Part shown: positions 8,440-36,950 of the stretch, one piece after another | How the letters are laid out: each line of letters opens with the position of its first letter | Position numbering within the stretch: position 1 is the stretch's first letter | Source of the DNA: Nanobdellati archaeon | GTDB taxonomy: Archaea > Nanobdellota > Nanobdellia > Woesearchaeales > GCA-2686295 | Reading direction: 5' to 3' | DNA length: 53,458 nt | Assembly: GCA_014384375.1 (NCBI GenBank) | Contig: JACNFY010000015.1 | Span: 1-53,458, forward strand | Notes under the pieces: model-generated | Told to the model about the DNA's origin: nothing | The model's input: the letters and a program-made list of their open reading frames with translations, nothing else | Databases searched by the model: none | Translations under genes and position numbers: made by a program

Positions 8440-9168
8440 CTAACCTCCTTTAATTCCTTTGTAAACAAAAAAGTAATAATATAGTCTATTTTTATCCTTG
8501 TATATCTTTGCTGTTCCTTCAGACTGCAATCTCATAAAATGTTCAAATAGTAAGGGGAGTGTTTTGTTTGCCAATTCTTTGGTAAAGTAGGTTTTTGATT
8601 TACCTATTACTTCAGCCTTAAATTCATATTTACTGAATGTCTTGATTATTTTGTCTTTGTTTGTGATAGATGCCCCGTTTAAATATAACTCTCCACCCTT
8701 TTTTAGTCGGCTGCTTGCCTGCTTTATAGCCTTGCAAAGGTGCTTTGTACCGTCCCATCCGCCATAAGTCAAAGGCTTTTCCTTCTTGAAATAAGGGATT
8801 TGGGGCAGGTTTGCTATGATCACATCGAACTTGCTCTTGACATTTGTTAACAGGTCACTTTTGACAAGCCTGACATTCTTGACAGTGTTCATTTTACAGT
8901 TCTTCAGAAAAGGTTTCTCAGTTTTTTCATCTATTTCTATACTGACTATTCTTTTAGCTCCCAATTTTGAAGCTACTATTGTCAAGGCTCCGCTACCAGT
9001 ACCGACATCACAAACATGATTGCCTTTATTTATATTAATTGAATTAGCCATTAATCTGGTGAATTTGTCAGGTTTATATGTAGATTCATTTACAACAAAT
9101 TTTAATTTAATCCCTTGATATTCTCTTTTTATGATTTTGTAATTATCTGACATCTTTTTTCTCTTCAA
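8440..9168 (-). CDS. Class I SAM-dependent methyltransferase
   Basis: VCDVGTGSGALTIVASKLGAKRIVSIEID and IIANLPQIPY motifs. Confidence 0.88.
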   Translation of the reverse strand: MKRKKMSDNYKIIKREYQGIKLKFVVNESTYKPDKFTRLMANSININKGNHVCDVGTGSGALTIVASKLGAKRIVSIEIDEKTEKPFLKNCKMNTVKNVRLVKSDLLTNVKSKFDVIIANLPQIPYFKKEKPLTYGGWDGTKHLCKAIKQASSRLKKGGELYLNGASITNKDKIIKTFSKYEFKAEVIGKSKTYFTKELANKTLPLLFEHFMRLQSEGTAKIYKDKNRLYYYFFVYKGIKGG

Positions 9169-9256
9169 GTGTGTTATATTAATTTCTATATAGTATCTTC
9201 TTTGAAACTTTTTTTCTACGTTTTGTTAACTGCTTATTTACACTCAGTTACTTTTT

Positions 9257-9502
9257 TTATACAAATTTGTTGTACAACCACACAAGCGCGTAAAGTGATA
9301 TGAAACCAATCACAGCAGCTTCAATCATCCCTGCTATTATCCCGCCGATGCTCAGCGAGAAAAACATATGCCATTTTTGCATCATCTCTGCAGTGTCTGT
9401 ATAGACGCCTATGTTTCCAAATATTCCTAGCAACAGCATTCCTGCTGCTGAAATTATTGCGCTGGCATAGCCAAGAGCTAAAGCGTTTAGTTTTTCAGCC
9501 AT
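9257..9502 (-). CDS. Small two-TM membrane protein
   Basis: 81 aa hydrophobic protein directly after the ArsR-like gene (2-nt gap). Confidence 0.6.
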   Translation of the reverse strand: MAEKLNALALGYASAIISAAGMLLLGIFGNIGVYTDTAEMMQKWHMFFSLSIGGIIAGMIEAAVIGFISLYALVWLYNKFV

Positions 9503-9503
9503 T

Positions 9504-9839
9504 TTAATACCTCCTTTTATTTTTTATCTTGCAGCATTCCTTGCATTTGGTTTTGCCGTTGAAGTGATCGAATGCATCTCTTAATATGCACCAGCAAAAC
9601 GAGTCTGATAGTTGAAATCTTTTTTCCCTTCCTTTCTTTTCATAAATAACTATGTCTAAATCGCTCAGCTGCCTTAGCTGGTGTGATATCGCTGAAAGAG
9701 TTAATTTATCTTTCCCAACAGCTTCATAAATTTCATTTACTGTTTTTGGTTCTTTTGTTAAGCTTACAAGCATCTTTAATCTGGTCTCGTCTGCCAGACT
9801 TGAGAAAAACCGTAGTATTTTCTTGTTGATTTGCTTCAT
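9504..9839 (-). CDS. ArsR-family winged-helix regulator
   Basis: RFFSSLADETRLKMLVSLTKEPKTVNEIYEAVGKDKLTLSAISHQLRQLSDLDIV. Confidence 0.88.
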   Translation of the reverse strand: MKQINKKILRFFSSLADETRLKMLVSLTKEPKTVNEIYEAVGKDKLTLSAISHQLRQLSDLDIVIYEKKGREKRFQLSDSFCWCILRDAFDHFNGKTKCKECCKIKNKRRY

Positions 9840-9983
9840 AGAATAGTTGAATGGTTGCTCAACTATTTAAATGTTTTGGTTTGAAGTTGAAAGATTAAAT
9901 GTTATTCTCTCAAACATATATCTCCACTTTCATCCCTTCCTATATGACAAGTAATATAAACAATTTCTAATAAACCATTCTCT

Positions 9984-11159
9984 ATGTTGGGTAAGTATAA
10001 TATAAAATCAAGGAATATATTAATAATGTATATAGCTCAAGTACTTGGTGGGCTATTGTTTTTTCTTCCTATTATCGCTCTTTATTTAGAAGAACATCTT
10101 TTTTCTGTTACTAATGTTGCAATAGTTTTTTTAGTTGAATCATTTGCAATGGCGATATTTGAAGTGCCGACAGGTGCAATCGCTGATTTGTTTGGCAGGA
10201 AAAAAACAATTATTTTGTCAAATGTTGTTGTATTGTTAGGGTTTATGTTTCTTTACATTGGTGGAAGTATGATTATGTTTATTTTTTTCGCACTCTTTAA
10301 TGCACTTGCAAGAAGCTTGTTTAGTGGAACCTCGAATGCAATGATATATGATACTTTGAAAGAAGAGGGTAAAGCTCATCACTACAAAAAAATCATTGGG
10401 ACTTATTCTGCTTTGTGGTCTTTTGGAGCCGTTGCAGGATCGTTAATTGGAGGATACTTAGCAAGTTTTTCATTATCATTAACAGTTATAATGTCTTTTA
10501 TACCTTTTACGATAATGCTCTTAATATTTCTCTTTCTAAAAGAGCCAAAGTATGAAACAGAACACCATAAAAATGTTGCAAAACACATGTTCTTGTCATC
10601 AAAAGAAGTTGTAAAAAATTATCAGTTGATAATAATATTTGTTGCTGGACTGATGATGTGGGGTATTGGTGAATCGATGCATCGACTTAGTTCATTATTC
10701 TATGATTTCAAACAAATACCTATAATATATTTTGGAATTATATATGCGTTCACTTTTGGACTATCATCAATAGGGCACTACTATGCACATGATGTTTCTG
10801 AAAGGCTAGGGGATAAGAATACGTTAGTGTTTGCAAGTCTTGGAACGTTTATTCTTCTTTTACTAGCAACTTTTACAACAGGATATGTATCGGTTGTGTT
10901 GTTTGTCGCGCCTTCAATATTCTTTGGTTTAAGAAATCCTATTGTTGATCACATGATAAATGAGGAAGTAGAATCAAAGAAAAGAGCAACAGTCATATCA
11001 ATATATAATTTGATGACCCGTATTGGAATGATCATATTCTTACCATTTGTTGGTTACTTAACAGAGTTATATACAATAAACACCGCGTTCAAGATAGGTG
11101 CTGTGGCTATGATTACAGTGCCTGTAATATTCATGTTTTTGAAAGAAAAAAGTGATTAA
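9984..11159 (+). CDS. MFS transporter
   Basis: 391 aa, ~12 TM; FEVPTGAIADLFGRKKTI signature loop. Confidence 0.88.
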   Translation: MLGKYNIKSRNILIMYIAQVLGGLLFFLPIIALYLEEHLFSVTNVAIVFLVESFAMAIFEVPTGAIADLFGRKKTIILSNVVVLLGFMFLYIGGSMIMFIFFALFNALARSLFSGTSNAMIYDTLKEEGKAHHYKKIIGTYSALWSFGAVAGSLIGGYLASFSLSLTVIMSFIPFTIMLLIFLFLKEPKYETEHHKNVAKHMFLSSKEVVKNYQLIIIFVAGLMMWGIGESMHRLSSLFYDFKQIPIIYFGIIYAFTFGLSSIGHYYAHDVSERLGDKNTLVFASLGTFILLLLATFTTGYVSVVLFVAPSIFFGLRNPIVDHMINEEVESKKRATVISIYNLMTRIGMIIFLPFVGYLTELYTINTAFKIGAVAMITVPVIFMFLKEKSD

Positions 11160-11593
11160 TAATTTATCTCAGCCTTCATCCCTTTATCTACACCATGTTC
11201 TTCGCTAAATCCTTCGTTCACTTCCACAACGAACTTTGCAGGTTCTTCAGAAGGGTAAAGTTCGCATGGATCTTCTTCGCAAGGAACTGCGTGCTGAATC
11301 TTAACAATCTCAAAGTCTGAGTTAATGAATATAATATCCAATGGTATCAGTGTGTTCTTCATCCAGAAGGTTCTTGGTTCTTCATCTGAGAAAATAAATA
11401 GCATTCCTTCAAACTCGCCAAGCTTTTCTCTCTCCATCAAGCCAAACATAACCTTGTCATATGTGTCTGCAATCTCAACATTAACAGTTATATCGCCAAG
11501 AACAACCTCTCCGGTTTCATACTCGAACTTTGTTTTCTCAGAACAACCATATAATAATAGTATTATTAATAATAAAATTATTTTTTTACCCAT
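11156..11593 (-). CDS. DUF192-family lipoprotein
   Basis: Lipobox LLLYGCSE; GLMEREKLGEFEGMLFIFSDEEPRTFWMKNTLIPLDIIFI. Confidence 0.88.
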   Translation of the reverse strand: MGKKIILLLIILLLYGCSEKTKFEYETGEVVLGDITVNVEIADTYDKVMFGLMEREKLGEFEGMLFIFSDEEPRTFWMKNTLIPLDIIFINSDFEIVKIQHAVPCEEDPCELYPSEEPAKFVVEVNEGFSEEHGVDKGMKAEINY

Positions 11594-12339
11594 TTTGTTA
11601 GCCAGTTTATGATTGCTTGAATTAGTTCGTTTGCTTTATTGTCTTCTGTAAACAAATGACCTGCTCCACTAATCATTTCCAAGGTTTTAGGATTGTTAGC
11701 AAGTACAAATAAGTCCTCAGATTCCTTTAGAGGTACGCTTGAATCCTTTGTTCCATGAATTATCAATAAAGGAACTTTTACTTTCTTCATTGATTCTGGA
11801 ACATTTACTTTTTCAAGGTCTTCAAAGAATATCTTGTAAAACTTGAATTTTTTTCTAGGATGGCAAGAAAAAGTGCTTCCTTTCTCGTAAGCTTCTTTTA
11901 TCCTTTCAGGCGTGAAATACCTTTTCTTCACTCCTTTCTCAGGATAAGCAGGCCCAGCCACATCCACTAACCATTTTACTCTTTTATCTTGGGCTGTTGT
12001 CAATATTGAAAGGCTTCCTCCCATGCTGTGTCCAATTAAGCAAAATTTTTTGTAACCTTTAGATTCTAGAACACCCAGAACAGTTGTTAAATCGTCAATT
12101 TCTTTGAGATAGGAAGCCTTACCAATTTCTCCTTCACTTTCTCCATTTCCAGCAAAGTCATGTTTGAAAACATTATACTTTTTGCTACTAATCGCATCAA
12201 ATAATTCTGGAAGGAAATTCTTATTTCTATGGCCAGTAAAGCCGTGGCATATAATAATCATTATATCAGAATCGTTATTTTTAGACAGGTCTCCAACTAG
12301 TTTCTCTCCATACCTGTTCTTGAAAGAAATCTTCTTCAT
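11578..12339 (-). CDS. Alpha/beta hydrolase
   Basis: HGFTGHRNK, GHSMGGSL nucleophile elbow, GTKDSSVP, GAGHLF. Confidence 0.9.
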   Translation of the reverse strand: MKKISFKNRYGEKLVGDLSKNNDSDIMIIICHGFTGHRNKNFLPELFDAISSKKYNVFKHDFAGNGESEGEIGKASYLKEIDDLTTVLGVLESKGYKKFCLIGHSMGGSLSILTTAQDKRVKWLVDVAGPAYPEKGVKKRYFTPERIKEAYEKGSTFSCHPRKKFKFYKIFFEDLEKVNVPESMKKVKVPLLIIHGTKDSSVPLKESEDLFVLANNPKTLEMISGAGHLFTEDNKANELIQAIINWLTKWVKK

Positions 12340-12443
12340 TGAAACTACGAAAAAAACCTTGTTTATAAAAGTTTTTTAAAAACTATATCTACTTTGGAAT
12401 GCTAAAACAAGTTTATATATGGTTTTCTTTATTTTTCTTCTTG

Positions 12444-14198
12444 ATGGCATTAGAGATTAATAGGCTTTCTTGGTTGATTGGCGGAGAGGCGGGTTATGGA
12501 ATAATGACTGCAGGCGAGAAATTCTCTAAAGCGATGATTTTCGGTGGCTTGAACGTCCATACACATGTTGAGTATCCATCTCTAATCAGAGGAGGACATA
12601 ATTCTTTTGGTGTAAGAGTTGAGGAGGAGGAAGTTAAGTGTCCTATTCTATTATACAACCTAGTGGTTGCTTTGAACAAAGACACCATTGACAGACATAA
12701 GAATTTCATGACAGCAGGCGGTGGAATAATATACGATGCTGACAATATTAAACTAGAGGAAAGTGAGCTAAGATCAGATATTAAGCTTTATCACGTTCCA
12801 CTCATGCAGATTGTCAAAGATACTCCTGGAGCAATCAATATAATGAGGAATACTGTTGCATTAGGAGCTTCCATAGCAGTTCTTGACTACAACTTTGATT
12901 ATCTTGCAGAAGCCATTCGAGGAGTTCACTCCAAGAAGAAGAAAAGAAATGAGATAATGGAGTTGAACGTGACAGTGGCAAAGAGAGGTTATGATTATAT
13001 CAAGAAGAACTACAATAACGACTTCGAGATAAAAATGCAGAAAAAACAGAGAAAGAAAAAGATGCTCATAACAGGTAATCAAGCAATAGCTTTGGGAGCT
13101 ATAAAAGCCGGATGCAAGTTCCTAGCTGCCTATCCAATGACACCTGCCTCTTCAATAATGAATTACTTTGTAGCTCATGAAGAAAAAGCCAAGGTCGTCA
13201 TGAAGCAAGCAGATGATGAGATAACTGCAATTAACATGGCTCTTGGAGCATCATATGCAGGTGTTAGATCCATGACCTCTACAAGTGGTGGAGGGCTTGC
13301 ATTAATGACTGAGACAACAAGTTTGCTTGGAATGACAGAAGTACCTCTCGTGATTGTAGACGTTCAAAGACCAGGTCCTGCAACTGGTCTGCCAACAAGA
13401 CAGGGTCAGGGAGACCTGAAATTTGTGCTAAACATAGGACACGGCGAGTTCCCAAGAATACTCATAGCGCCAGGAGATGCAGAGGAGTGTTTCTACGAGA
13501 CTTTCAACGCTTTCAATCTTGCAGACAAATACCAGCTGCCAGTGTTCATTGTATCTGACAAGCACCTTGCAGTTTCATACAAATCAATACCTAAGTTTGA
13601 TACCAAACACTTGAAGATAGACAGAGGTTGGCTATTATCAGATGAAGAGGTCAAGAACTGGCATGACTACAAGAGGTTCATGGTCACTGATTCAGGGATT
13701 TCACCAAGAGCAATTCCAGGGCAACACCTAATCTTTAGATCAAGCAGTGATGAGCATAACGAGTATGGTAACATATGTGAGAAAGGTGATAATAAGATTG
13801 CTCAGGAAGATAAACGTTTCAGAAAACTTGATACTGCTATGAGTGACATACCACTTCCGAAAATATACGGTCCTGAAAAAGCAGATATAACTATAATGAG
13901 TTGGGGTTCAACAAAAGGAGCAATCCTTGAAGCAATGGAATATCTGAAGAATGATGGTATCAACGCAAACTTCCTGCACATTGTATATGTGTATCCACTC
14001 CATACTCACTTTGTCAAAGAATTCCTAAAGAATGCCAAGATGGTTGTTGATGTAGAGGAAAACAAGACAGCACAACTTGCAGGTGTTATAAGAGAATTCA
14101 CAGGTTTCAAGATATATCATAAAGTACTCAAATATAATGGAAGAACACTTTATCCAAGCGAGATATATGACGGTTTGAAGAGGGTCTACTATGGTTGA
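12444..14198 (+). CDS. korA: 2-oxoacid:ferredoxin oxidoreductase, fused gamma-alpha subunit
   Basis: GGEAGYGIMTAGEKFSKA then AYPMTPASSIMNY; start taken at the internal ATG (MALEINRL) because aagtttatatatgg just upstream looks like the promoter. Confidence 0.88.
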   Translation: MALEINRLSWLIGGEAGYGIMTAGEKFSKAMIFGGLNVHTHVEYPSLIRGGHNSFGVRVEEEEVKCPILLYNLVVALNKDTIDRHKNFMTAGGGIIYDADNIKLEESELRSDIKLYHVPLMQIVKDTPGAINIMRNTVALGASIAVLDYNFDYLAEAIRGVHSKKKKRNEIMELNVTVAKRGYDYIKKNYNNDFEIKMQKKQRKKKMLITGNQAIALGAIKAGCKFLAAYPMTPASSIMNYFVAHEEKAKVVMKQADDEITAINMALGASYAGVRSMTSTSGGGLALMTETTSLLGMTEVPLVIVDVQRPGPATGLPTRQGQGDLKFVLNIGHGEFPRILIAPGDAEECFYETFNAFNLADKYQLPVFIVSDKHLAVSYKSIPKFDTKHLKIDRGWLLSDEEVKNWHDYKRFMVTDSGISPRAIPGQHLIFRSSSDEHNEYGNICEKGDNKIAQEDKRFRKLDTAMSDIPLPKIYGPEKADITIMSWGSTKGAILEAMEYLKNDGINANFLHIVYVYPLHTHFVKEFLKNAKMVVDVEENKTAQLAGVIREFTGFKIYHKVLKYNGRTLYPSEIYDGLKRVYYG

Positions 14199-15051
14199 TT
14201 TAAACGATTTATCAACAGGAAGCTATGTACCTGATTGGTGTCCGGGGTGTGGAGATTATATCATATTAAACGCTCTAAAAAGAGCGATAGTCAAGCTCAA
14301 TCTCAATCCAAAAGATGTTGTTGTTGTTTCAGGCATAGGTTGCTCTTCCAAACTGCCCCAGTGGATAAACACGTTTGGATATCATGGAGTTCATGGAAGG
14401 GGCTTGCCTGTAGGTACTGGTGTGAAACTGGCTAACAAGAAACTGAACGTTGTAGTCATCGGGGGAGATGGAGATGTTTATGGTGAGGGTATGAACCACT
14501 TTATACACGCGCTTAGAAAGAACATAAACATCACGCTGCTAGTGCACGACAATCAGATTTATGCGTTGACAAAGGGCCAGGCTTCCCCAACTACTATTCG
14601 TGGAGACAGGACAAAGACCACACCATTGGGTACTTTTGATGACCCTATTAATCCAATGGCTCTTGCAGTTGCCCAGAGAGCTTCATACATAGCAAGGAGT
14701 TTTGCAGGTGATCTTGACCACTTAGCAAATACAATTGCAGATGCGATTGCTTTCAAAGGTTTTGCGTTTGTTAATATATTTCAGCCATGCGTCACATGGA
14801 ACAAGCACAACACATACGACTGGTTCAAAGAAAGAATTTATGATTTGCAGAAAGCCAGATACAAACCAAACAACATTGAGAGAGCTTTCAAAAAGTCACT
14901 AGAGGGATATGAGAAGATACCTGTGGGTGTTTTCTTCAGGGAGAAGAGAGAACTGTTCGAAGATTCGCATCCAATACTGAAGAAAACCTCTCTTGTCAAG
15001 CAGAAGATTGATGATGTTTCTATAAATGCATTGATGGATGAGCTGTGCTAA
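14191..15051 (+). CDS. korB: 2-oxoacid:ferredoxin oxidoreductase beta subunit (TPP-binding)
   Basis: DWCPGCGDYIIL, SGIGCSSKLPQW, GGDGDVYGEGMNHFIHALRKN. Confidence 0.93.
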   Translation: MVDLNDLSTGSYVPDWCPGCGDYIILNALKRAIVKLNLNPKDVVVVSGIGCSSKLPQWINTFGYHGVHGRGLPVGTGVKLANKKLNVVVIGGDGDVYGEGMNHFIHALRKNINITLLVHDNQIYALTKGQASPTTIRGDRTKTTPLGTFDDPINPMALAVAQRASYIARSFAGDLDHLANTIADAIAFKGFAFVNIFQPCVTWNKHNTYDWFKERIYDLQKARYKPNNIERAFKKSLEGYEKIPVGVFFREKRELFEDSHPILKKTSLVKQKIDDVSINALMDELC

Positions 15052-15095
15052 AAAGTTTCTAAATATTTATATACTATTAAATCCTATTTTAATGT

Positions 15096-16244
15096 ATGGG
15101 GGATGCTGTTTGGTTTAAAAATGCAATAATATATCAAATCCTTATTGATAGGTTTGCAGGCTGTAAATCAAACAACTGGGATAAACCGATTTTTCTTGGA
15201 GGCAATATAGAAGGAATTATTGAAAAACTTCCGTATATTAAGGAATTAGGAGTCAACACTATATGGATTTCTCCTTTTTACAGGACAAGTGCATATCATG
15301 GGTATGAGATTGTGAACTTTTTTGAAGTAGATCATAGCTTTGGAACAAAGGATGATTTGATAAACTTGATAGGGAAAGTTCACGAGTTAGGGATGTGGAT
15401 AATAGCTGATTTTGTTCCAAATCATTGCTCATGGAAACATCCTTTCTTTCTAGAAGCTCAGAAAAATAAGAATAGCGAGTATTACAATTGGTTTTATTTC
15501 AAGAAATGGCCTTATGATTATATGTGTTTTTTGAAATTTAGGAATCTGCCGAAAATAAATCTTGAATATCCTCCTGCAGGACAGCATATTATTGATGCAG
15601 CCAAGCAGTGGCTGAGCCTTGGTCTTGATGGTTTCAGGCTTGATCATGTTATCGGTCCAAAACATGAATTCTGGAAAAAATTTAGAGAAGAGATAAAAAA
15701 TGAGAATCCAAAAGCGGTGTTGATAGGAGAAGCATGGATGATGGGAATAAAATTCAACGAATTAGAAACCATAAATGTTAGGAAGAAATTCTTGAAATGG
15801 TTCCTTGGCAGTTCTTCAGACAATCTATTTAAAGAATACATTGGAGAGCTTGATGGAGTTCTGGATTTCAAGTTCTGCGATTTGATGAGAGAATTTGCTA
15901 GGAGAAAAATAAACAGGAAGAGGTTAATGAGTAAATTAGAAAAACATTTTTCAAAGTACCCTGATAATTTCTTCTTACCTGTTTTCTTAGACAATCATGA
16001 CATGAATCGTTTTTTGTTTGAGTGTGGAAATGACAAGAAGAAACTTAAAGAAGCTGTGAAGATTCTCTTTTCAGTTAATCAACCAACTGTAATCTACTAT
16101 GGCTCTGAAGTTGGAATGAGACAGGAAAAATCTTTAGAAGAATTTAGTGAAAACGGGGATTTACAGGCAAGACAGCCGATGAAATGGAAGCAGCAAGATA
16201 GTGAGTTATTAGAATTCTATAAGAAAGTAATAAAGAAAGATTAG
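15096..16244 (+). CDS. GH13 alpha-amylase family glycosidase
   Basis: DFVPNHCSWKHP, GLDGFRLDHV, GEAW, FLDNHDMNRF. Confidence 0.92.
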   Translation: MGDAVWFKNAIIYQILIDRFAGCKSNNWDKPIFLGGNIEGIIEKLPYIKELGVNTIWISPFYRTSAYHGYEIVNFFEVDHSFGTKDDLINLIGKVHELGMWIIADFVPNHCSWKHPFFLEAQKNKNSEYYNWFYFKKWPYDYMCFLKFRNLPKINLEYPPAGQHIIDAAKQWLSLGLDGFRLDHVIGPKHEFWKKFREEIKNENPKAVLIGEAWMMGIKFNELETINVRKKFLKWFLGSSSDNLFKEYIGELDGVLDFKFCDLMREFARRKINRKRLMSKLEKHFSKYPDNFFLPVFLDNHDMNRFLFECGNDKKKLKEAVKILFSVNQPTVIYYGSEVGMRQEKSLEEFSENGDLQARQPMKWKQQDSELLEFYKKVIKKD

Positions 16245-16361: not shown

Positions 16362-16369
16362 TTTATATA
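16362..16369 (+). promoter_or_regulatory. Archaeal TATA box for the first CPFC microORF / VKOR operon
   Basis: tttatata about 60 nt upstream of the ATG at 16427. Confidence 0.55.
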
Positions 16370-16426
16370 GTTTTTGTATAGTAAAGTATTATAAGATTTG
16401 TTGAATATAAGAAAGAGGTTTGTTTC

Positions 16427-16498
16427 ATGGCTGCTAAGAAGAAGAAAAAGAAGAAAGACCACGAGTGTGAAGGTGACGAAGCCTGTCCATTCTGCTGA
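16427..16498 (+). CDS. Lys-rich CPFC microprotein 1 (23 aa)
   Basis: Hand translation MAAKKKKKKKDHECEGDEACPFC*; purine-rich RBS gaaagagg; paralogue at 19552. Confidence 0.7.
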   Translation: MAAKKKKKKKDHECEGDEACPFC

Positions 16499-16524
16499 TT
16501 AGGATAAAAAAGAGGTTTGATAGT

Positions 16525-17049
16525 GTGGATACTCAAAAAAAGTTATTTGTATCATTAATTGTTTTGCTGTCTATAGGCATGCTTGATTCTCTATTTTTAG
16601 TGTATGAACATTTTTCTCCAACTGCCAGCAAGTATTGCACTTTTGGGGAAGGTTTTGACTGTGGTATTGTTAACAAAAGTCCTTATGCAAACCTGGATGG
16701 AATATCCTACCTGCTAACAATAGACTTCAAGCTTCCGATTCCTCTTATTGACATAGCTGGTTTGGGGGTTTTCTTTGACCTTGTCACCTCTAATGCCTTC
16801 CTTGGTTTTTTGACATTACTGTTTATTTTATTGTTATTAATAGCAAGGTATGAAAAGAAGGGTTTTTTATGGGTGAAATATGAGAAGACGACTGCTTGGA
16901 TTAAGGGCTTGTTAATCTTCGGAGTGATATATGGGTTTTACTTGTTCTTAATACAGCATTTCATACTGAAAACGTATTGTCTGTTCTGTTTATTTCTGGA
17001 CTTGATATTGTTGATAGGCCTTATACTTGCCTGGAGGTTGAAAAAATGA
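16525..17049 (+). CDS. VKOR-domain membrane protein
   Basis: GTG start; CTFGEGFDCGIVNKSPYANLDG..PIPLIDIAGLG and TYCLFCLFLDL (CxxC near the C-terminus). Confidence 0.85.
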   Translation: MDTQKKLFVSLIVLLSIGMLDSLFLVYEHFSPTASKYCTFGEGFDCGIVNKSPYANLDGISYLLTIDFKLPIPLIDIAGLGVFFDLVTSNAFLGFLTLLFILLLLIARYEKKGFLWVKYEKTTAWIKGLLIFGVIYGFYLFLIQHFILKTYCLFCLFLDLILLIGLILAWRLKK

Positions 17050-17414
17050 AAAAACTCTTTGTTTTACTGGTTCCGATGTTGTTTTTGTTGGCTGCTTGTG
17101 CCTCAAAATATCCGCAGGAAGAGGTTGATAGGTTTGCGAAGTGTTTGACTGAGAACAAGGTAGTTATGTATGGTACTTTCTGGTGTCCTAAATGTGCAAA
17201 ACAGAAAAAAATGTTTGGAACTTCTTTCCAATATATACAATATATTGAATGTGACCCAAGAGGAGAAAATGAGCAGTCTGAGTTATGCATAGAAAAAAAA
17301 GTTGAGAAATATCCTGACTGGGAATTTATAGATGAGAGTAGAATGGTAGGTATTCTTTCATTTGAAGAATTGAGTGAGAAGTCAGGATGTCCAGCTCCTG
17401 TAAAAGAAGAGTAG
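17046..17414 (+). CDS. Thioredoxin-like lipoprotein
   Basis: MKKLFVLLVPMLFLLAACASK lipobox; YGTFWCPKCAKQKKMFG; ATGA overlap with the VKOR gene. Confidence 0.9.
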   Translation: MKKLFVLLVPMLFLLAACASKYPQEEVDRFAKCLTENKVVMYGTFWCPKCAKQKKMFGTSFQYIQYIECDPRGENEQSELCIEKKVEKYPDWEFIDESRMVGILSFEELSEKSGCPAPVKEE

Positions 17415-17415
17415 A

Positions 17416-18129
17416 ATGGTCACAGAAATAATATTACCCACAATACCGGTTGTTATCACAACTGCGGCGATTGATTCTATTAATCCATGCGCTATAGGTG
17501 TGCTGGTTTTACTGGTGGCTACGCTGCTGGGTTTATCAAAGAACAGACATAAGATGCTGGTTGTTGGCCTGATTTACATAACAGCTGTTTTCTTAACATA
17601 CTTGGCGGCTGGTTTTGGATTGCTTGTATTCATCCAGAAGTTAAATATCTCTACTCAACTGAGCTGGATTGTCGGAAGCTTGGTTATAATTCTTGGCTTT
17701 ATCGAGATCAAAGACTTCTGGTGGTATGGCAAGGGCATATCTCTGCAGATCCCTGCTAGGAGAGCCAAGCAGATCATGAAGCTGATTGACAATGTCTCGA
17801 TACCAGGGGCTATCGTATTGGGTATGTTCGTGGCAGCAGTTGAACTTCCGTGTACAGGCGGTCCTTATCTGGCGATAACAACCTTGCTGGCCAAGATTGG
17901 CTTGTCATGGAATGTGTTCTGGTTGCTGGTGTTTTACAACTTCATATTTGTACTCCCGTTGTTGATAATACTTGGTATTGTCTACTTCGGGGCTCACCCT
18001 GACAGGATAAAGGAGTGGAAAGACCGCGAAAAGAGGTGGATGAGGCTCTTCATGGGAATTGTTATGGTTATACTTGGAGTTTTGTTGATACTCTGGGCTT
18101 ATGGAACAATTAGTTTTGGTTTAGGATAA
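17416..18129 (+). CDS. DsbD/CcdA-like transmembrane thiol-disulfide protein
   Basis: DSINPCAIGVLVLLVATLLG and VAAVELPCTGGPYLAI motifs. Confidence 0.9.
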   Translation: MVTEIILPTIPVVITTAAIDSINPCAIGVLVLLVATLLGLSKNRHKMLVVGLIYITAVFLTYLAAGFGLLVFIQKLNISTQLSWIVGSLVIILGFIEIKDFWWYGKGISLQIPARRAKQIMKLIDNVSIPGAIVLGMFVAAVELPCTGGPYLAITTLLAKIGLSWNVFWLLVFYNFIFVLPLLIILGIVYFGAHPDRIKEWKDREKRWMRLFMGIVMVILGVLLILWAYGTISFGLG

Positions 18130-18176
18130 TTTTTTTAGCAAAATATAAAAAGAATTAAATTAGAGCAATACTTAAA

Positions 18177-18653
18177 ATGGTACATCCACTAATCGGGATA
18201 CATGCTGCATTTGGTGAGATAGGTGCATTCGCATTTCTTTGGGTGCTTGTTGAATTGTTAAACCCTAGTGAAGAGAGAATAAGGAGGGCTAAGATCGCAG
18301 CTGTTGTGGGCGTAGTGTTCTTGTTTCTCTCATGGGTCACGGCAGGTTATTACTATGTGAATATTTATGGTGCAGATGTAAAGCCAATGATTAAAGCAGG
18401 TCCTGCGCCATGGGCGCATAAGATATTTACAGAGACAAAAGAACATTTATTCATCTTCTTACCGTTCTTATCTATCCTCACTGCAGGACTTATCTTCAAA
18501 TACAAGGATGAGTTGATTGAAAACAAAGGTGCTAAATTGTCAGTCCTTTTACTTTCAGGATTAGTCTTTTTGATCGCTTTATCCATGGCAGGTATGGGGT
18601 ACATAATATCGATGGGAGCAAGAGCTGCTCTGGAGGCAGGTGTTGTAGCATGA
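18177..18653 (+). CDS. Uncharacterised 4-5 TM protein
   Basis: 158 aa hydrophobic, His in and near TM segments; in the redox cassette. Confidence 0.7.
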   Translation: MVHPLIGIHAAFGEIGAFAFLWVLVELLNPSEERIRRAKIAAVVGVVFLFLSWVTAGYYYVNIYGADVKPMIKAGPAPWAHKIFTETKEHLFIFLPFLSILTAGLIFKYKDELIENKGAKLSVLLLSGLVFLIALSMAGMGYIISMGARAALEAGVVA

Positions 18654-18952
18654 GGATTCACGTTAAATCCCTGAGCTGGTCAACAGCAATAACAATGTTG
18701 GCAGTTGCTATAGTAACTGTCTGGAGCGAGTTATCAAAACCTTTTAAGAGCTTTCTAGCTGGCATAACAGGTCATCACTGGGTTACTAAAAGCGTTTTCT
18801 CTGTTATTTTGTTTGTTCTCCTTTATTTTATATTTATGAAGATGTTGAAGGAGACTGATGATGTCAAGAAAGAGACTTATTACGTCATCGGCAGCGCTGT
18901 ATTGGGTGGGTTGGTAATATTCATCTTTTATGTATGGCACTTCTTTTCTTAA
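18650..18952 (+). CDS. Uncharacterised 3-TM protein
   Basis: 100 aa; overlaps the upstream stop by 4 nt (ATGA). Confidence 0.7.
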   Translation: MRIHVKSLSWSTAITMLAVAIVTVWSELSKPFKSFLAGITGHHWVTKSVFSVILFVLLYFIFMKMLKETDDVKKETYYVIGSAVLGGLVIFIFYVWHFFS

Positions 18953-18971
18953 GAATTAAGAGGTTGATACT

Positions 18972-19463
18972 ATGAAATATGCAAAAAAACAGTATGTATT
19001 GGCCTTTGTCAGGATTGGTCTTGGTTGGATTTTCTTGTGGGCCTTTCTAGACAAGGTTTTTGGATTAGGATTCGCCACTGAAGCTGAAAGCGCATGGCTA
19101 GCAGGAGGTTCTCCGACAGCCGGATTCCTGCAGTTTGGAACAGCAGGACCGTTCGCTTCTGTTTTTCAGGGTCTTGCAGGCAGTGCATTTGTTGAATGGC
19201 TTTTCATGATAGGCCTGTTGCTGATTGGGCTTGCTTTGATATTCGGTATGGGTGTGAAGATTGCAGGCTATACAGGAGCTCTCTTGATGCTTCTCATGTG
19301 GCTGGCAGTTCTGCCGCCGGAGCACAATCCGATACTTGATGACCACATAATATACGGCCTGATTCTGATAGGTCTGACATTCGTCAAGTCAGGACATTGG
19401 CTTGGCCTTGGCAAGTGGTGGTCAGGAACAGAGCTTGTGAAGAAGCATTCGTTTTTAGAATAA
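18972..19463 (+). CDS. DoxX/DoxD-like membrane protein
   Basis: FVRIGLGWIFLWAFLDKVFGLGFAT....HIIYGLILIGLTFVKSGHWLGLGKWW. Confidence 0.78.
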   Translation: MKYAKKQYVLAFVRIGLGWIFLWAFLDKVFGLGFATEAESAWLAGGSPTAGFLQFGTAGPFASVFQGLAGSAFVEWLFMIGLLLIGLALIFGMGVKIAGYTGALLMLLMWLAVLPPEHNPILDDHIIYGLILIGLTFVKSGHWLGLGKWWSGTELVKKHSFLE

Positions 19464-19505
19464 TTCTTTTCTTCTTTTCTTATTCTTTTGTTTCATTGCA
19501 AAAAG

Positions 19506-19513
19506 TTTATATA
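19506..19513 (+). promoter_or_regulatory. Archaeal TATA box for the second CPFC microORF
   Basis: aaaaagtttatataacgg about 40 nt upstream of the ATG at 19552. Confidence 0.6.
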
Positions 19514-19551
19514 ACGGTAGTTTCATAAGAATGTGAAGAAGAGGTGGTTTC

Positions 19552-19617
19552 ATGGCAGGCAAGAAAAAGAAGAAGTCCGTCTCTAAAGATGATGATGAGT
19601 CCTGTCCGTTCTGCTAA
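19552..19617 (+). CDS. Lys-rich CPFC microprotein 2 (21 aa)
   Basis: Hand translation MAGKKKKKSVSKDDDESCPFC*; RBS gaagaggtgg; leader and C-terminus match the 16427 ORF. Confidence 0.7.
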   Translation: MAGKKKKKSVSKDDDESCPFC

Positions 19618-19656: not shown

Positions 19657-22353
19657 ATGGAGTTTTACAATCAGGCTGTAGAAGATGTTTTAGAATCATT
19701 AAATGTGAATCCTGATCAAGGATTAAGCACAGAGGAAGTTGAGAACAGAAGAAATATTCACGGGTCAAACGAATTAAAGAAGAAAAAGAAAACAAATCCT
19801 TTAGTTCTTTTCATAAACCAGTTCAGGAGTTTCATAATCTACATACTTCTTTTTGCAGTGGCTATATCAGCTATCTCAGGTGGATACACAGATGCTACAG
19901 TTATATTGATAATATTATTGTTCAATGCAGTCTTTGGTTTCATACAGGAGTTCAAAGCAGAGAAAGCCATCGAAGCTCTTAGGAAGATTTCAGGATTAAA
20001 TGCAAGAGTGCTCAGGAATGGTAAGGTAGAATTGGTTGATACCAAAGACATTGTAAGAGGGGATATAATACTTTTAGAAGAAGGAAACAAAGTTCCTGCT
20101 GATGCAAGGGTAATTGAATCAAATGAGATACATGTTTCCGAGGCATCGCTTACAGGAGAGTCTGTTCCTGTTGCAAAACATGAAGCTCTACTTCAAGGAA
20201 AGCTGGTTATACAGGACAGGAGGAACATGCTCTTTTCAGGGACAACGATCACAAGAGGAAGAGGAAAGGCAATAGTTACTTCTATTGGTATGGAGACCGA
20301 GATTGGAAGGATAGCTGAGATGATAACAGAGGTTGATGAAGAACTCACTCCATTACAGAAAAGGCTTGGTTCACTTGGCCGTAAGATAGGTTTGGTGACA
20401 ATACTTATATGTATTGTTGTATTTTTTGCAGGTGTTGCCAAGGAAGGGATTATTCCGATTCTTTTTTCACAAGGATTAGTTGAATTCGTATTTGCAGCTA
20501 AGGTGTGGTTCTTGACAGCTGTTTCATTAGCTGTTGCAGCTGTTCCTGAGGGCTTGCCAGCAATAGTTACTATAGCATTAGCTATTGGTGTCAGGAAAAT
20601 GGTTAAGAGAAATGCCCTTATAAGAAGACTGCCTTCAGTAGAGACTCTTGGAGAGGCAACAGTGATATGTTCTGATAAGACAGGAACCCTAACAAGAAAT
20701 GAGATGACTGTGAGGACTGCTTATACGAATCTAAAGCAGATAGATGTCGAGGGAGAGGGTTACGACATAAAAGGCAAGGTTCTTTCTTTAGGAGAGCCGA
20801 TTGATAAAGAAAGCGAGCTAATTTTCAAGATTGGAGCTCTATGCAACAATGCATCGTTAGAGGTACACAAAAAAAAGATTAATGTCACAGGAGACCCGAC
20901 AGAATTAGCTTTGTTAGTAAGCGCTGAAAAAATCGGGATTAAAACCAAGAAAATAAGTAAATCTTGGAACAGGATAGCAGAGAAGCCTTTTGATTCTGTA
21001 AGAAAGATGATGAGCACTGTCAATGTTGATCCTGAAACAGGAAGAAGCTATGTCTTTGCTAAGGGAGCTCCTGAACATGTTCTGGAGAAATGTGATAGGA
21101 TAATAATAAACGGAAATATCAGGAAACTCACTCCTGAGGACAAGGAACATATACTTGTCAGGAATGAGGAATTTGCAAAGCAGGCTTTAAGAGTGTTAGG
21201 ATTCGCTTACAAGAAACATCATAAAGGAGAGGAACTGGAAAAGAACTTGATATTTGTAGGTTTGCAGGGCATGATAGACCCTCCTCATCACGAAGTAAAA
21301 GACGCTATAAAAAGATGCGAGGAAGCTGGCATAAGGGTCATCATGATAACTGGTGATAACAGGCATACAGCTGAGGCCATAGCAAGAGAGATAGGTATTG
21401 AAGCAGAGTCAATGGATGGTCCGGAGTTCTCGAAACTATCAGAGCCAGAACAGGCAAAGGCTATTGAGAGGGTTTCAATATTCTCAAGGGTTGAGCCAAG
21501 CCATAAAATGATCATAATAAAATTATTAGAGCGCAAGGGGGAGGTTGTTGCAATGACTGGTGACGGCGTCAACGATGCTCCAGCTATAAAGAGAGCTGAC
21601 CTTGGTATCTCGATGGGTATTACAGGCACAGATGTTGCCAAGGAGTCAAGTGATATGGTGTTATTGGATGATAATTTTACAAGTATAGTGAACTCGGTGG
21701 AGGAAGGCAGGGGTATTTATGAGAATATAAGGAAATTCGTCAATTATCTGCTGTCATGTAATCTTGGAGAAGTATTTGTGATATTCTTTGCAATACTGTT
21801 TGGTTGGCCTTTGCCGATGACAGCTATAATGTTGTTATGGCTAAATCTTGTTACAGATGGCTTACCAGCGCTTGCTTTGAGTGTTGATCCTAACCCTACT
21901 GATTTGATGAAGAGACCTCCGAAGAAAACTAAAGAAGGCATTATGAACAAGCAAATAATGTTTCACATAATCTATGTTTCTGTACTGATAACAATTGGCG
22001 TACTATCCTTATTTTATTGGGGTATAAATCACTATCAAGGCACTGAGAATTATATGGACAAGATACAGACATTAGCTTTCACAACAATTGTAATTCTTGA
22101 ATTGGTTAGGTTACAAGCCATAAGATCTGAGTATAGATTAGGAATGTTCAGCAACAAGTATTTAGTGTTAGCGGTTATCACTTCTTTACTATTGCAGTTG
22201 TTAATAATTTATACTCCTCTAAATGTCTTCTTTGGCACAGTTTATCTATCACTAACTGATTGGGTGATGATAATAGTAGTCAGTGCAGCGGTTTTAGTGA
22301 TGGATGTCTTTGGACAAGCCTTGAGAAACAGAATGAATTTGTTGAGGGCTTAG
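19657..22353 (+). CDS. P-type cation-transporting ATPase (P2-type, Ca2+-like)
   Basis: SLTGESVPV, PEGLPAIVTIALAIG, CSDKTGTLTRNEMT, TGDGVNDAPAIKRAD. Confidence 0.95.
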   Translation: MEFYNQAVEDVLESLNVNPDQGLSTEEVENRRNIHGSNELKKKKKTNPLVLFINQFRSFIIYILLFAVAISAISGGYTDATVILIILLFNAVFGFIQEFKAEKAIEALRKISGLNARVLRNGKVELVDTKDIVRGDIILLEEGNKVPADARVIESNEIHVSEASLTGESVPVAKHEALLQGKLVIQDRRNMLFSGTTITRGRGKAIVTSIGMETEIGRIAEMITEVDEELTPLQKRLGSLGRKIGLVTILICIVVFFAGVAKEGIIPILFSQGLVEFVFAAKVWFLTAVSLAVAAVPEGLPAIVTIALAIGVRKMVKRNALIRRLPSVETLGEATVICSDKTGTLTRNEMTVRTAYTNLKQIDVEGEGYDIKGKVLSLGEPIDKESELIFKIGALCNNASLEVHKKKINVTGDPTELALLVSAEKIGIKTKKISKSWNRIAEKPFDSVRKMMSTVNVDPETGRSYVFAKGAPEHVLEKCDRIIINGNIRKLTPEDKEHILVRNEEFAKQALRVLGFAYKKHHKGEELEKNLIFVGLQGMIDPPHHEVKDAIKRCEEAGIRVIMITGDNRHTAEAIAREIGIEAESMDGPEFSKLSEPEQAKAIERVSIFSRVEPSHKMIIIKLLERKGEVVAMTGDGVNDAPAIKRADLGISMGITGTDVAKESSDMVLLDDNFTSIVNSVEEGRGIYENIRKFVNYLLSCNLGEVFVIFFAILFGWPLPMTAIMLLWLNLVTDGLPALALSVDPNPTDLMKRPPKKTKEGIMNKQIMFHIIYVSVLITIGVLSLFYWGINHYQGTENYMDKIQTLAFTTIVILELVRLQAIRSEYRLGMFSNKYLVLAVITSLLLQLLIIYTPLNVFFGTVYLSLTDWVMIIVVSAAVLVMDVFGQALRNRMNLLRA

Positions 22354-34271: not shown

Positions 34272-36950
34272 TTACCAGCTAAGATATTTCATAAAAAACT
34301 TTCTTTCCTTTCTGGTGTAGAATTTTCTCCATTCACCAAATAGGAATATCAAGATTGCGAATGGAACTGCCACTAGGAATTCAGCCCTGCCAAGAGGATG
34401 CGTTCCAAAGAAAGTGTTTGCAGGAGGCCAGAACACAATAATGCCTAATAAGATTAATTCAACAACAATACCTAACCAAACCAACTTGTTTCTAAAGAAA
34501 CCCTGCTTGAATATTGATTGCCTCCTTGTACGACAAATCATGACGTCAGGAATCTGGCATATGACAATGCTAGCAAAGAAAGCAGTGACAGCCTTCAAGT
34601 ATAGAGGGTCAGTAATTGCTAGTTCTGTGCCCCAACTCCATCCTCCGCTAAACAGAACAAAGAAGTAAGCGAAGAAGCCAGCAGCTGCCTGAATCATACC
34701 AACAATACCATAGGAGATGGACAACAGTTGAGGACTCAACAGTCTCTCTTTTCGAGAACGAGGAGGCTCCTTCATAACATCAGACTCTGGTCTTTCTCTG
34801 CCAAGGCCCAGGGCTGGTAATAAATCTGTTCCTAAATCGATTGCTAGTATTAAGACGACTGTTAATGGTAGAGGAATACCTAATAATACAAAGGCAATGA
34901 ATGGTAATATCTGAGGAACATTGCTTGTTAAGATATAGGCGATGAACTTTTTTATGTTGGAGTATATGGTCCTACCTTCTTCAACAGCGTTTACAATGGT
35001 TGCAAAATTGTCATCCAGCAACACCATGTTGCTAGCTTCCTTAGCAACCTCTGTCCCGATGATACCCATTGATATGCCGATGTCAGCGTTTTTCAAAGCA
35101 GGTGCATCATTCACACCATCGCCAGTTACAGCTACTATTTCTCCGTTGGCCTGCAATGCTTGCACAATCTTAAGCTTTTGTATTGGGGAAGTCCTTGCGA
35201 ATATGATATTTTCTTTTTTTAGTATCTCTCTTAAATCTTCATCGCTTAATTCTATGAGCTCTTTACCAGTTATGATTGTGTGTCGATATCCTTCTTCTAT
35301 TATACCTACTTTTCTTGCGATTGCTTCTGCAGTCAAGCTGTAGTCTCCAGTGATCATTATTACTTTGATACCTGCTTCTTTGCACTTCTCGATTGCTGCT
35401 GGAATCTCAGGTCTTGGAGGGTCGATGATGCCAACTAATGCAACGAATATGAAGTCTTCATTGTCAATCTTTCCATAAGACTGGCAGTAAGCAAGACCAA
35501 GAACCCTTTCCCCTCTGGAAGCTAAGTCTTTGTAATGCGTCTCAATAATTTTCCTTGTATTTTCATCCAGTTCTTTTTTAGTGTTGTTTATTATTATTTG
35601 GCTGCATTTCTCGAGCACAACTTCAGGAGCGCCTTTTAGATATGAGAACTTCTTGTTTTTGAACTTGTTCAGGGTTATCATGCATTTTGTCTTGGAGTCA
35701 AATGGTTGCTCATCAAGTCTTGGATGGTCTTTTTGAATTTGGTCTATGTTTACGTAGTGCTCTGCAAATGTTAGTAAAGCTCCTTCAGTTGGATCTCCTA
35801 GGTATTTCTTTTTATCCAGTTTTGCATTGTTGCAAAGCACAGCTATACCCATTGCTGTGTCGAAACCATCTACTTTCTCGGCATAGTCTTTTTCATGAAG
35901 TTCTCTTAAATTGATGAACAAGGAGTGGACAAACATCTTGTTCTGGGTTATTGTTCCTGTTTTGTCAGTGCAAATTACAGTTGTTGAGCCTAAAGTTTCT
36001 ACTGACTCAAGGTTTTTTATTAAGGTGTTCTTCTTTGCCATCTTTCTAGAAGCCATGCTTAAGGCTAATGTTACTGTTGGTAGAAGTCCTTCTGGAACGT
36101 TTGCTACTATAATACCGATTGCGAATATCAGACTGCCTATCAATTGGTTGCCAAGAGCAAAGCTCAGGAAGAAAAAGACAACTCCGAGGATGATTGCAAT
36201 AGTTGATATTATCTTTATGAAATGATTAATCTCTTTTCTGATAGGAGTTACAACCTTTTTTGTCTCTTTTGTTAACTGAGCAATCCTTCCAATCTGTGTC
36301 TTCATACCAGTTGAATAAACTATAGCTGTGCCGGTTCCTGACTGCACAAGTGTTCCTGAGAAAATCATATTTCTGGTCTCTAATATGTCTTCATGTATGC
36401 ATTCTAAGCTTCTTAACTGTGGCTCTGATTCTCCTGTTAGAGCAGAGTGGTCAACCTTTAACATGTGCTGGTCTATGAGCCTTGCATCGGCGGGTATCTT
36501 GTCTCCTTCTGACAGAAAGATGATGTCGCCAGGCACAAGTTCCATTGCAAGTATTTCTCTCTTTTTACCATCTCTCAAAACCTGTATCTTGCTTGGCATC
36601 ATCTTCTTGAAACCCTGCATGATCTTCTCAGACTGGTATTCCTGTATGAAAGTGAATGTGGCGTTTAGGAAAACAACTATTACAAGAGCAATTCCAATGT
36701 ATAGGTTTCCTTCACCAGGAGTTATGTACTCTGCAAAGAACGCTAATCCAGAACCTGCTAACAACAGCAAGGCAAAAAAGTTCGTGAAGTTCTTCAGGTA
36801 TCTTATGATTAAAGGAACATCCTCTTTTTCCTCGATGATGTTTTTTCCATACTCTTGGAGTCTTTTCTGAGCTTCCTCGTTTGATAGTCCTTTTTCTGAG
36901 GAGTCAACTCTTTTATACAACTCTTTCAGAGAAATCTTGTGCTCATCCAT
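34272..36950 (-). CDS. P-type cation-transporting ATPase (P2-type)
   Basis: SALTGESEPQ, PEGLLPTVTLALSM, CTDKTGTITQNKMF, TGDGVNDAPALKNAD. Confidence 0.95.
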   Translation of the reverse strand: MDEHKISLKELYKRVDSSEKGLSNEEAQKRLQEYGKNIIEEKEDVPLIIRYLKNFTNFFALLLLAGSGLAFFAEYITPGEGNLYIGIALVIVVFLNATFTFIQEYQSEKIMQGFKKMMPSKIQVLRDGKKREILAMELVPGDIIFLSEGDKIPADARLIDQHMLKVDHSALTGESEPQLRSLECIHEDILETRNMIFSGTLVQSGTGTAIVYSTGMKTQIGRIAQLTKETKKVVTPIRKEINHFIKIISTIAIILGVVFFFLSFALGNQLIGSLIFAIGIIVANVPEGLLPTVTLALSMASRKMAKKNTLIKNLESVETLGSTTVICTDKTGTITQNKMFVHSLFINLRELHEKDYAEKVDGFDTAMGIAVLCNNAKLDKKKYLGDPTEGALLTFAEHYVNIDQIQKDHPRLDEQPFDSKTKCMITLNKFKNKKFSYLKGAPEVVLEKCSQIIINNTKKELDENTRKIIETHYKDLASRGERVLGLAYCQSYGKIDNEDFIFVALVGIIDPPRPEIPAAIEKCKEAGIKVIMITGDYSLTAEAIARKVGIIEEGYRHTIITGKELIELSDEDLREILKKENIIFARTSPIQKLKIVQALQANGEIVAVTGDGVNDAPALKNADIGISMGIIGTEVAKEASNMVLLDDNFATIVNAVEEGRTIYSNIKKFIAYILTSNVPQILPFIAFVLLGIPLPLTVVLILAIDLGTDLLPALGLGRERPESDVMKEPPRSRKERLLSPQLLSISYGIVGMIQAAAGFFAYFFVLFSGGWSWGTELAITDPLYLKAVTAFFASIVICQIPDVMICRTRRQSIFKQGFFRNKLVWLGIVVELILLGIIVFWPPANTFFGTHPLGRAEFLVAVPFAILIFLFGEWRKFYTRKERKFFMKYLSW

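Follow-up and report, generated by a model that had tools for sequence, protein, structure and literature searches.

Lysine-rich microproteins with a C-terminal dithiol: a family linked to thiol-redox genes in DPANN archaea and a Saccharibacterium

Flexible C-terminal tails bearing a CxxC-like dithiol shuttle electrons in high-Mr (relative molecular mass) thioredoxin reductase and in ribonucleotide reductase. Proteins of the CcdA/DsbD type carry electrons over the membrane and receive them from cytoplasmic thioredoxin (PMC4491210). Of the archaeal micro-proteins described so far, those nearest to the peptides treated here are the C(P)XCG zinc fingers, which carry two CxxC motifs (PMC10716476). 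Here we analyze two very short open reading frames (micro-ORFs) in the 53,458-nucleotide contig JACNFY010000015.1 of a Nanobdellati archaeon, the whole of which we call the window. Each encodes a Lys-rich peptide ending in CPFC, and both belong to a peptide family that accompanies thiol-redox genes. An earlier note, made from the letters of the window, had suggested a dithiol or metal-binding peptide family or, alternatively, redox- or metal-sensing leader peptides; the family and its redox link stand, and the leader proposal falls.

Both micro-ORFs lie where the note had placed them, each behind a TATA box and a Shine-Dalgarno sequence. The following elements were read directly, the Shine-Dalgarno sequences with family comparison in addition:

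16362-16369, + strand: TATA box TTTATATA of the peptide-1 transcription unit, 65 nucleotides 5' of the ATG
16415-16419, + strand: Shine-Dalgarno sequence of peptide 1, GAGGT
16427-16498, + strand: microprotein 1, MAAKKKKKKKDHECEGDEACPFC, 23 residues, then a stop codon
19506-19514, + strand: TATA box TTTATATAA of the peptide-2 transcription unit, 46 nucleotides 5' of the ATG
19541-19547, + strand: Shine-Dalgarno sequence of peptide 2, GAGGTGG
19552-19617, + strand: microprotein 2, MAGKKKKKSVSKDDDESCPFC, 21 residues, then a stop codon

A pattern scan of the 1.27-Mb genome for TGYCCNTTYTGYTRA returned two sites only, namely the two micro-ORFs. Comparison with other genomes, which are metagenome assemblies, yields a family of 31 peptides, the window's two included, of 12-43 residues (mostly 17-29), all of them Lys-rich. 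Every member ends in C-x-[F/Y/V]-C followed by the stop codon, the endings being CEFC in 15, CPFC in 10, CEYC in 3, and CRYC, CDFC and CEVC in one each. These two cysteines are the only ones in 30 of the 31, microprotein 1 being the sole member counted with a third. The hosts are Nanoarchaeota-type DPANN archaea and one Saccharibacterium. Of 9 archaeal CPFC peptides checked, all 9 have a TATA-like box between -30 and -65. The likeness of the two leaders remarked upon earlier is visible, but is mostly a common Shine-Dalgarno sequence, GAGGTG, which recurs throughout the family. The acidic middle ascribed to both peptides characterizes only the CPFC branch, in which a Lys-rich stretch is followed by an acidic one; members of the CEFC branch, which are more numerous, are basic almost throughout, with a net charge of +5 to +11. 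The CPFC members of G085 and G108 are net negative.

Relatives outside the contig were found in other archaeal genomes and in the Saccharibacterium. A run of lysines followed by CPFC, the search pattern originally proposed, retrieves relatives but is too narrow, the commonest ending being CEFC. Within the genus and family it finds the window's two peptides only, the remaining matches being out of frame or out of context. A scan of 295 genomes of the same order gives in-frame relatives in four, G085 (MAKEEATKKKKKPEEEDDEEEGCPFC), G038 (MAFLLLKDKKKKKPISDDSDGGCPFC), G221 (MDKGKKKPCPFC) and G205 (MEVKEKRAKKKKGCPFC), and the scan of the class adds G476 and G554 (MAEKK[S/G]KKKQKKKPITKEDNEGCPFC). When the Lys run was combined with any CPxC ending in 384 genomes of the class, matches other than CPFC were judged to be chance and only CPFC was convincing. 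Among the matches listed from a GTDB-wide pattern scan, most are chance and four are convincing in context (L126, L128, L168 and L148), the last adding a Saccharibacterial member that ends in EEGCPFC. The second, commoner branch, exemplified by MAKKSKKAKAKKSKAVKSKKAKVCEFC, MPSPKKKRKLIKKKISKKNVCEYC and MPGTKKPKKKKNVCEFC, occurs in the neighborhood of a membrane protein that we name HWHAD after its invariant motif.

None of the Pfam and NCBIfam models matched the peptides above its cut-off, and literature searches of open-access papers found no paper on them. The proposal of an undescribed peptide family is thus borne out by the 31 members, their coding constraint (see below) and the absence of such a match; the family itself appears well supported, and new to the sources searched. 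Like the haloarchaeal C(P)XCG zinc-finger micro-proteins (HVO_0758, HVO_2753; PMC10716476), the peptides are archaeal, have a CxxC motif and are in some cases basic; unlike them, they have a single, terminal CxxC without the G. A stand-alone C4 zinc finger of the C(P)XCG type is ruled out because there is one dithiol per chain (two cysteines only in 30 of 31), and a metallothionein, a Cys-rich chain with many CxC or CC motifs, is ruled out by the two cysteines per chain. Two ORFs, L219:4080-4199 (-) and L224:4872-5048 (-), are possible members in which zinc-finger-like Cys motifs replace the Lys tail; the N-terminus of L219 is LIM-like, and the two still end in CEYC and CEFC. A 22-residue ORF at L217:1419-1487 (+), MAKDKTCGCGSGKKEKDCCGSG, resembles a free-standing SEC-C motif and lies behind a strong ribosome site.

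Three lines of evidence bear on whether these ORFs are coding. An independent pattern consisting of a Shine-Dalgarno sequence, an ATG and the C-terminus alone was run over 382 genomes with the reversed pattern as control. It gave 14 sites by listing count (13 tally rows) against 0 for the control; the G017 site is out of frame, each of the others encodes a Lys-rich peptide in frame, and microprotein 2 was retrieved independently in this way. Second, the close pair L032/L033 differs by 10 synonymous codon changes (the stop included) versus 1 nonsynonymous, the coding constraint that the earlier note had named as a check. Third, among Lys/Arg-rich, Shine-Dalgarno-preceded short ORFs in cluster loci, a set selected on Lys-richness that carries no bias toward C-x2-C spacing, a terminal C-x2-C occurs 16 times, spacings of x0, x1, x3, x4 and x5 do not occur, and x6 occurs once. 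A C-x2-C followed by 1-12 further residues was seen twice, both times in ORFs unrelated to the family. As judged from sequence comparison, both micro-ORFs of the window are confirmed as genuine microproteins.

The peptides are strongly linked to a defined set of genes. Partners were taken to be CcdA, VKOR, VKOR-type thioredoxin, DoxX, disulfide-reductase flavoprotein, the HWHAD protein and the cluster P-type ATPase; the reference proteins used for scoring all came from other genomes. A partner lies within 1.5 kb of 19 of the 22 peptides found blind to context, versus 0 of 53 control loci (3-kb windows round chance pattern matches in related genomes; Fisher p ~5e-15), which substantiates the tie to redox genes; no partner was found within 1.5 kb of the other three, in G227, G192 and G520. 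The most frequent company is thiol-redox, comprising CcdA, VKOR, VKOR-type thioredoxin and disulfide reductase. Both membrane cysteines, in the motifs NPC and ELPCT, are kept in 31 of 31 CcdA copies compared, and the CcdA of the window has both.

In G038, G221, G205, G476 and G554 the order is, contig permitting, peptide, HWHAD, CcdA, with a divergent flavoprotein of the dihydrolipoyl-dehydrogenase (DLD) type, and in G476 and G554 the run extends to a P-type ATPase. The Saccharibacterium carries DLD, an ATP-cone protein (identified by likeness to a Pfam-confirmed archaeal protein), CcdA and HWHAD on one strand, and a P-type ATPase followed by the CPFC peptide on the other. Peptides away from HWHAD adjoin VKOR (G449), CcdA with a distant HWHAD (G107), VKOR and DoxX (G074), VKOR-type thioredoxin (G045), a P-type ATPase and VKOR (G495), or DoxX (G459); DoxX is likewise a neighbor of peptides in L287 and in L320, where it was recognized by its similarity to L287. 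The G108 peptide is paired with a DLD-type flavoprotein, apart from the HWHAD/CcdA cluster (L282). HWHAD clusters without an adjacent peptide, in genomes that carry one elsewhere, occur in G108, G227, G192, G449, G495, G459 and G520. The peptide may thus stand before HWHAD, after the CcdA or ATP-cone gene, after VKOR, divergent, after the ATPase, or unlinked.

A divergent flavoprotein of the DLD/GR type is present at 7 of 7 archaeal CPFC loci outside the window. Peptide-linked flavoproteins keep the redox CxxxxC pair, and 7 of 8 keep the HPTL[S/A]E dyad. The possibility that lipoate enzymes explain the DLD is only partly excluded: no lipoyl or biotinyl domain was found in G108 (95% complete), though its flavoprotein is paired with a peptide, and G085 has, in addition to its peptide-linked DLD, a separate one in the PDH operon. 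As a universal partner DLD is ruled out, being missing from the window's genome and from the CEFC loci scanned. The window's genome does encode a TrxB-like protein with CVTC, which could act as the reductase in this organism.

The window's own redox genes lie between and behind the two peptides:

16525-17049, + strand: VKOR family membrane protein, cysteine pairs present (PF07884, E=4.7e-16)
17046-17414, + strand: secreted thioredoxin-like lipoprotein with FWCPKC (AlphaFold2 pLDDT 86; best PDB match 3kp8, E=3.6e-8)
17416-18129, + strand: CcdA/DsbD-transmembrane-type thiol electron transporter (PF11139, 4.4e-13; PF02683, 6.5e-8)
18177-18653, + strand: membrane protein, cassette member on the same strand, no curated match above cut-off
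18650-18952, + strand: small membrane protein, cassette member (library scans)
18972-19463, + strand: DoxX-like membrane protein, sub-threshold (PF07681, E=0.0099, under cut-off)
19660-22353, + strand: SERCA-type P-type ATPase (TIGR01116, 742.5 bits, above cut-off)

These matches agree with the VKOR/thioredoxin/DsbD-like cassette and the downstream P-type ATPase, here of the SERCA type, that had been proposed from the translations. The gap from peptide 1 to the VKOR start is 26 nucleotides, as claimed; that from peptide 2 to the ATPase, given as about 39, is 42 nucleotides to the ATG at 19660 and 24 to an upstream TTG. The top PDB match of the lipoprotein model, 3kp8, is the thioredoxin-like domain of Synechococcus VKOR, and the lipoprotein, so modeled, is likely the thioredoxin partner of VKOR. 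The window would thus carry a split version (VKOR plus thioredoxin-like lipoprotein) of the Synechococcus VKOR-thioredoxin fusion (PDB 3kp9/3kp8), which has no microprotein, whereas the window's operon is led by one. Pfam and NCBIfam scans gave no family above a curated cut-off for the membrane proteins at 18177-18952. The ATPase is 61% identical to that of the G476 CPFC cluster, which ties the second unit to the HWHAD cluster, of which the ATPase is a part. A second P-type ATPase-like ORF of the window, at 34332-36896 (-), lacks a CPFC peptide. VKOR-type thioredoxins at L288:2479-2997 (-) and L216:4319-4801 (-) have an N-terminal C2H2-like finger and a transmembrane helix, an arrangement that the window's copy lacks.

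The HWHAD profile matches 51 of 384 genomes of the class. HWHAD proteins lie at L026:1625-2440, L171:5457-6164, L148:3536-4456 and about 25 other places. The protein has a signal or transmembrane helices, an extracytoplasmic domain, and invariant HWHAD, HxH and Cys residues; its AlphaFold2 model (pLDDT 90) found no fold match in PDB, and its sequence matched nothing in Pfam or NCBIfam. The HWHAD-CcdA cluster regularly includes an ATP-cone domain (PF03477) encoded as a protein of its own, as at L171:4496-4801 (-), L204:4379-4636 (+) and L322:10518-10802 (-). ATP-cones are usually located on ribonucleotide reductase or NrdR. The whole cluster, with DLD, ATP-cone, CcdA, HWHAD, P-type ATPase and CPFC peptide, occupies 9129-15982 of Saccharibacterial L322 (JARIHL010000035.1); that DPANN archaea and a bacterium of the Candidate Phyla Radiation share it suggests transfer between domains.

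We file the family as a variant of thiol-redox relay systems. Our preferred reading, which we hold tentatively, is that the peptides may be unfolded cytoplasmic dithiol carriers that are recharged by a DLD-type flavoprotein or TrxB and feed CcdA. A short, Lys-rich and probably unstructured peptide, with one C-x-[F/Y]-C dithiol at its extreme C-terminus, would here take the role of cytoplasmic thioredoxin for CcdA/DsbD. A flavoprotein disulfide reductase (a DLD-type enzyme for the CPFC branch; for the organism of the window, probably TrxB) would reduce the CxxC. From the reduced peptide the electrons would pass to the cysteine pair of CcdA, which would export them to extracytoplasmic thiol or metal proteins (HWHAD or, in the window, the VKOR/thioredoxin pair). 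By its Lys tail the peptide may be kept near the anionic membrane face. The simplest flow would run from NAD(P)H through flavoprotein, peptide dithiol and CcdA to extracytoplasmic thiols.

With thioredoxin and glutaredoxin the peptides share the CxxC dithiol (CPFC, CEFC or a near variant in all members; CPFC/CPYC in glutaredoxins), CcdA and a flavoprotein disulfide reductase encoded alongside, and the proposed role. In contrast to those proteins of about 100 residues, whose thioredoxin fold takes some 80-110, the peptides have 12-43 residues, are Lys-rich with the dithiol at the C-terminus, match no library model and are too short for the fold. The tails of high-Mr thioredoxin reductase and ribonucleotide reductase offer the same flexible C-terminal CxxC-like dithiol; theirs is part of a large enzyme, whereas in the present family the tail would be a protein by itself.

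Several observations weigh against a cytoplasmic dithiol carrier. Gene linkage proves neither contact nor direction. Because 5 of 8 CPFC-type genomes outside the window encode a lipoyl/biotinyl-domain protein, some DLDs may serve that protein instead. No Pyr_redox_dim flavoprotein was found in the window's genome, so that a different enzyme would have to serve as its reductase. CcdA/HWHAD genomes often carry the peptide at another site, and no convincing peptide was found in four of them (G528, G114, G475, G537). The zinc-finger-like N-termini of L219 and L224 count on the same side, as do two features that lead to the main rival: CxxC is able to bind soft metals, which a free C-terminal dithiol fits, and the G108 peptide is His-rich.

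According to this rival, possible though unlikely, the peptides bind metal as chaperone, buffer or sensor, the terminal CxxC sharing a metal between two chains or between chain and partner, and the Lys tail docking to a transporter, for instance the P-type ATPase. A P-type ATPase does lie near the peptide in the window, G476/G554, G495 and G590, the invariant His residues of HWHAD (HWHAD, HxH) look metal-binding, and peptide 2 has a weak A2L zinc-ribbon match (E=0.013, under cut-off). However, the ATPase is of the SERCA type by an above-cut-off match, not a P1B heavy-metal pump, 30 of 31 chains have a single dithiol, and thiol-redox genes are the most frequent company. Sequence alone cannot decide between redox and metal; gene company favors redox.

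Distinctly less probable is a redox-sensing regulatory peptide whose dithiol/disulfide state controls the transcription or activity of neighboring membrane redox genes, with nucleic acid or an acidic surface contacted by its basic tail. The strongly basic CEFC-branch tails would suit this, and the archaeal micro-protein Brz, encoded upstream of its target bop, is a known regulator (PMC2253796); the net negative G085 and G108 members, however, are ill-suited to nucleic-acid binding. Still more doubtful is a peptide that is itself substrate or carrier, its dithiol modified in the manner of ribosomally synthesized and post-translationally modified peptides (RiPPs) or bearing a sulfur or acyl group that replaces lipoate for the DLD-type enzyme. 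That enzyme's active site is intact, and the G085 peptide sits between such a DLD and lplA, lipA and PDH genes, but no RiPP-modifying enzyme was recognized in neighboring genes and no DLD was detected at the CEFC-branch loci scanned. A translational leader or attenuator sensing cysteine or redox state is very improbable: the peptide is 5' of a neighboring gene in the window and at about half of the loci, but elsewhere it follows the CcdA or ATP-cone gene, VKOR or ATPase, is divergent, or lies far from its partners, where a leader is unworkable, and this reading is rejected because gene order varies. Chance ORFs, for which small size and low-complexity Lys runs might speak, are practically excluded by the reversed control (0 versus 14), synonymous substitution, spacing and gene linkage, as the earlier note had anticipated.

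ORFs of this size escape gene callers, and so a conserved part of thiol metabolism in DPANN archaea and Saccharibacteria has gone unnoticed. The family provides a sequence handle on an unannotated cluster (HWHAD, CcdA, ATP-cone, P-type ATPase, DLD-type reductase) in archaea and Saccharibacteria. With a shade more reserve than for the carrier reading itself, we propose that a dithiol peptide of about 20 residues, made on the ribosome and lacking a fold, may link a dedicated flavoprotein reductase to CcdA in ultrasmall archaea and some Saccharibacteria, in the manner of glutathione or thioredoxin. Among genetically encoded dithiol redox carriers, such peptides may be the smallest known. If they do carry electrons, a redox protein would be reducible to its dithiol alone, and how host-dependent organisms with minimal genomes keep thiols reduced on both sides of the membrane would become testable.

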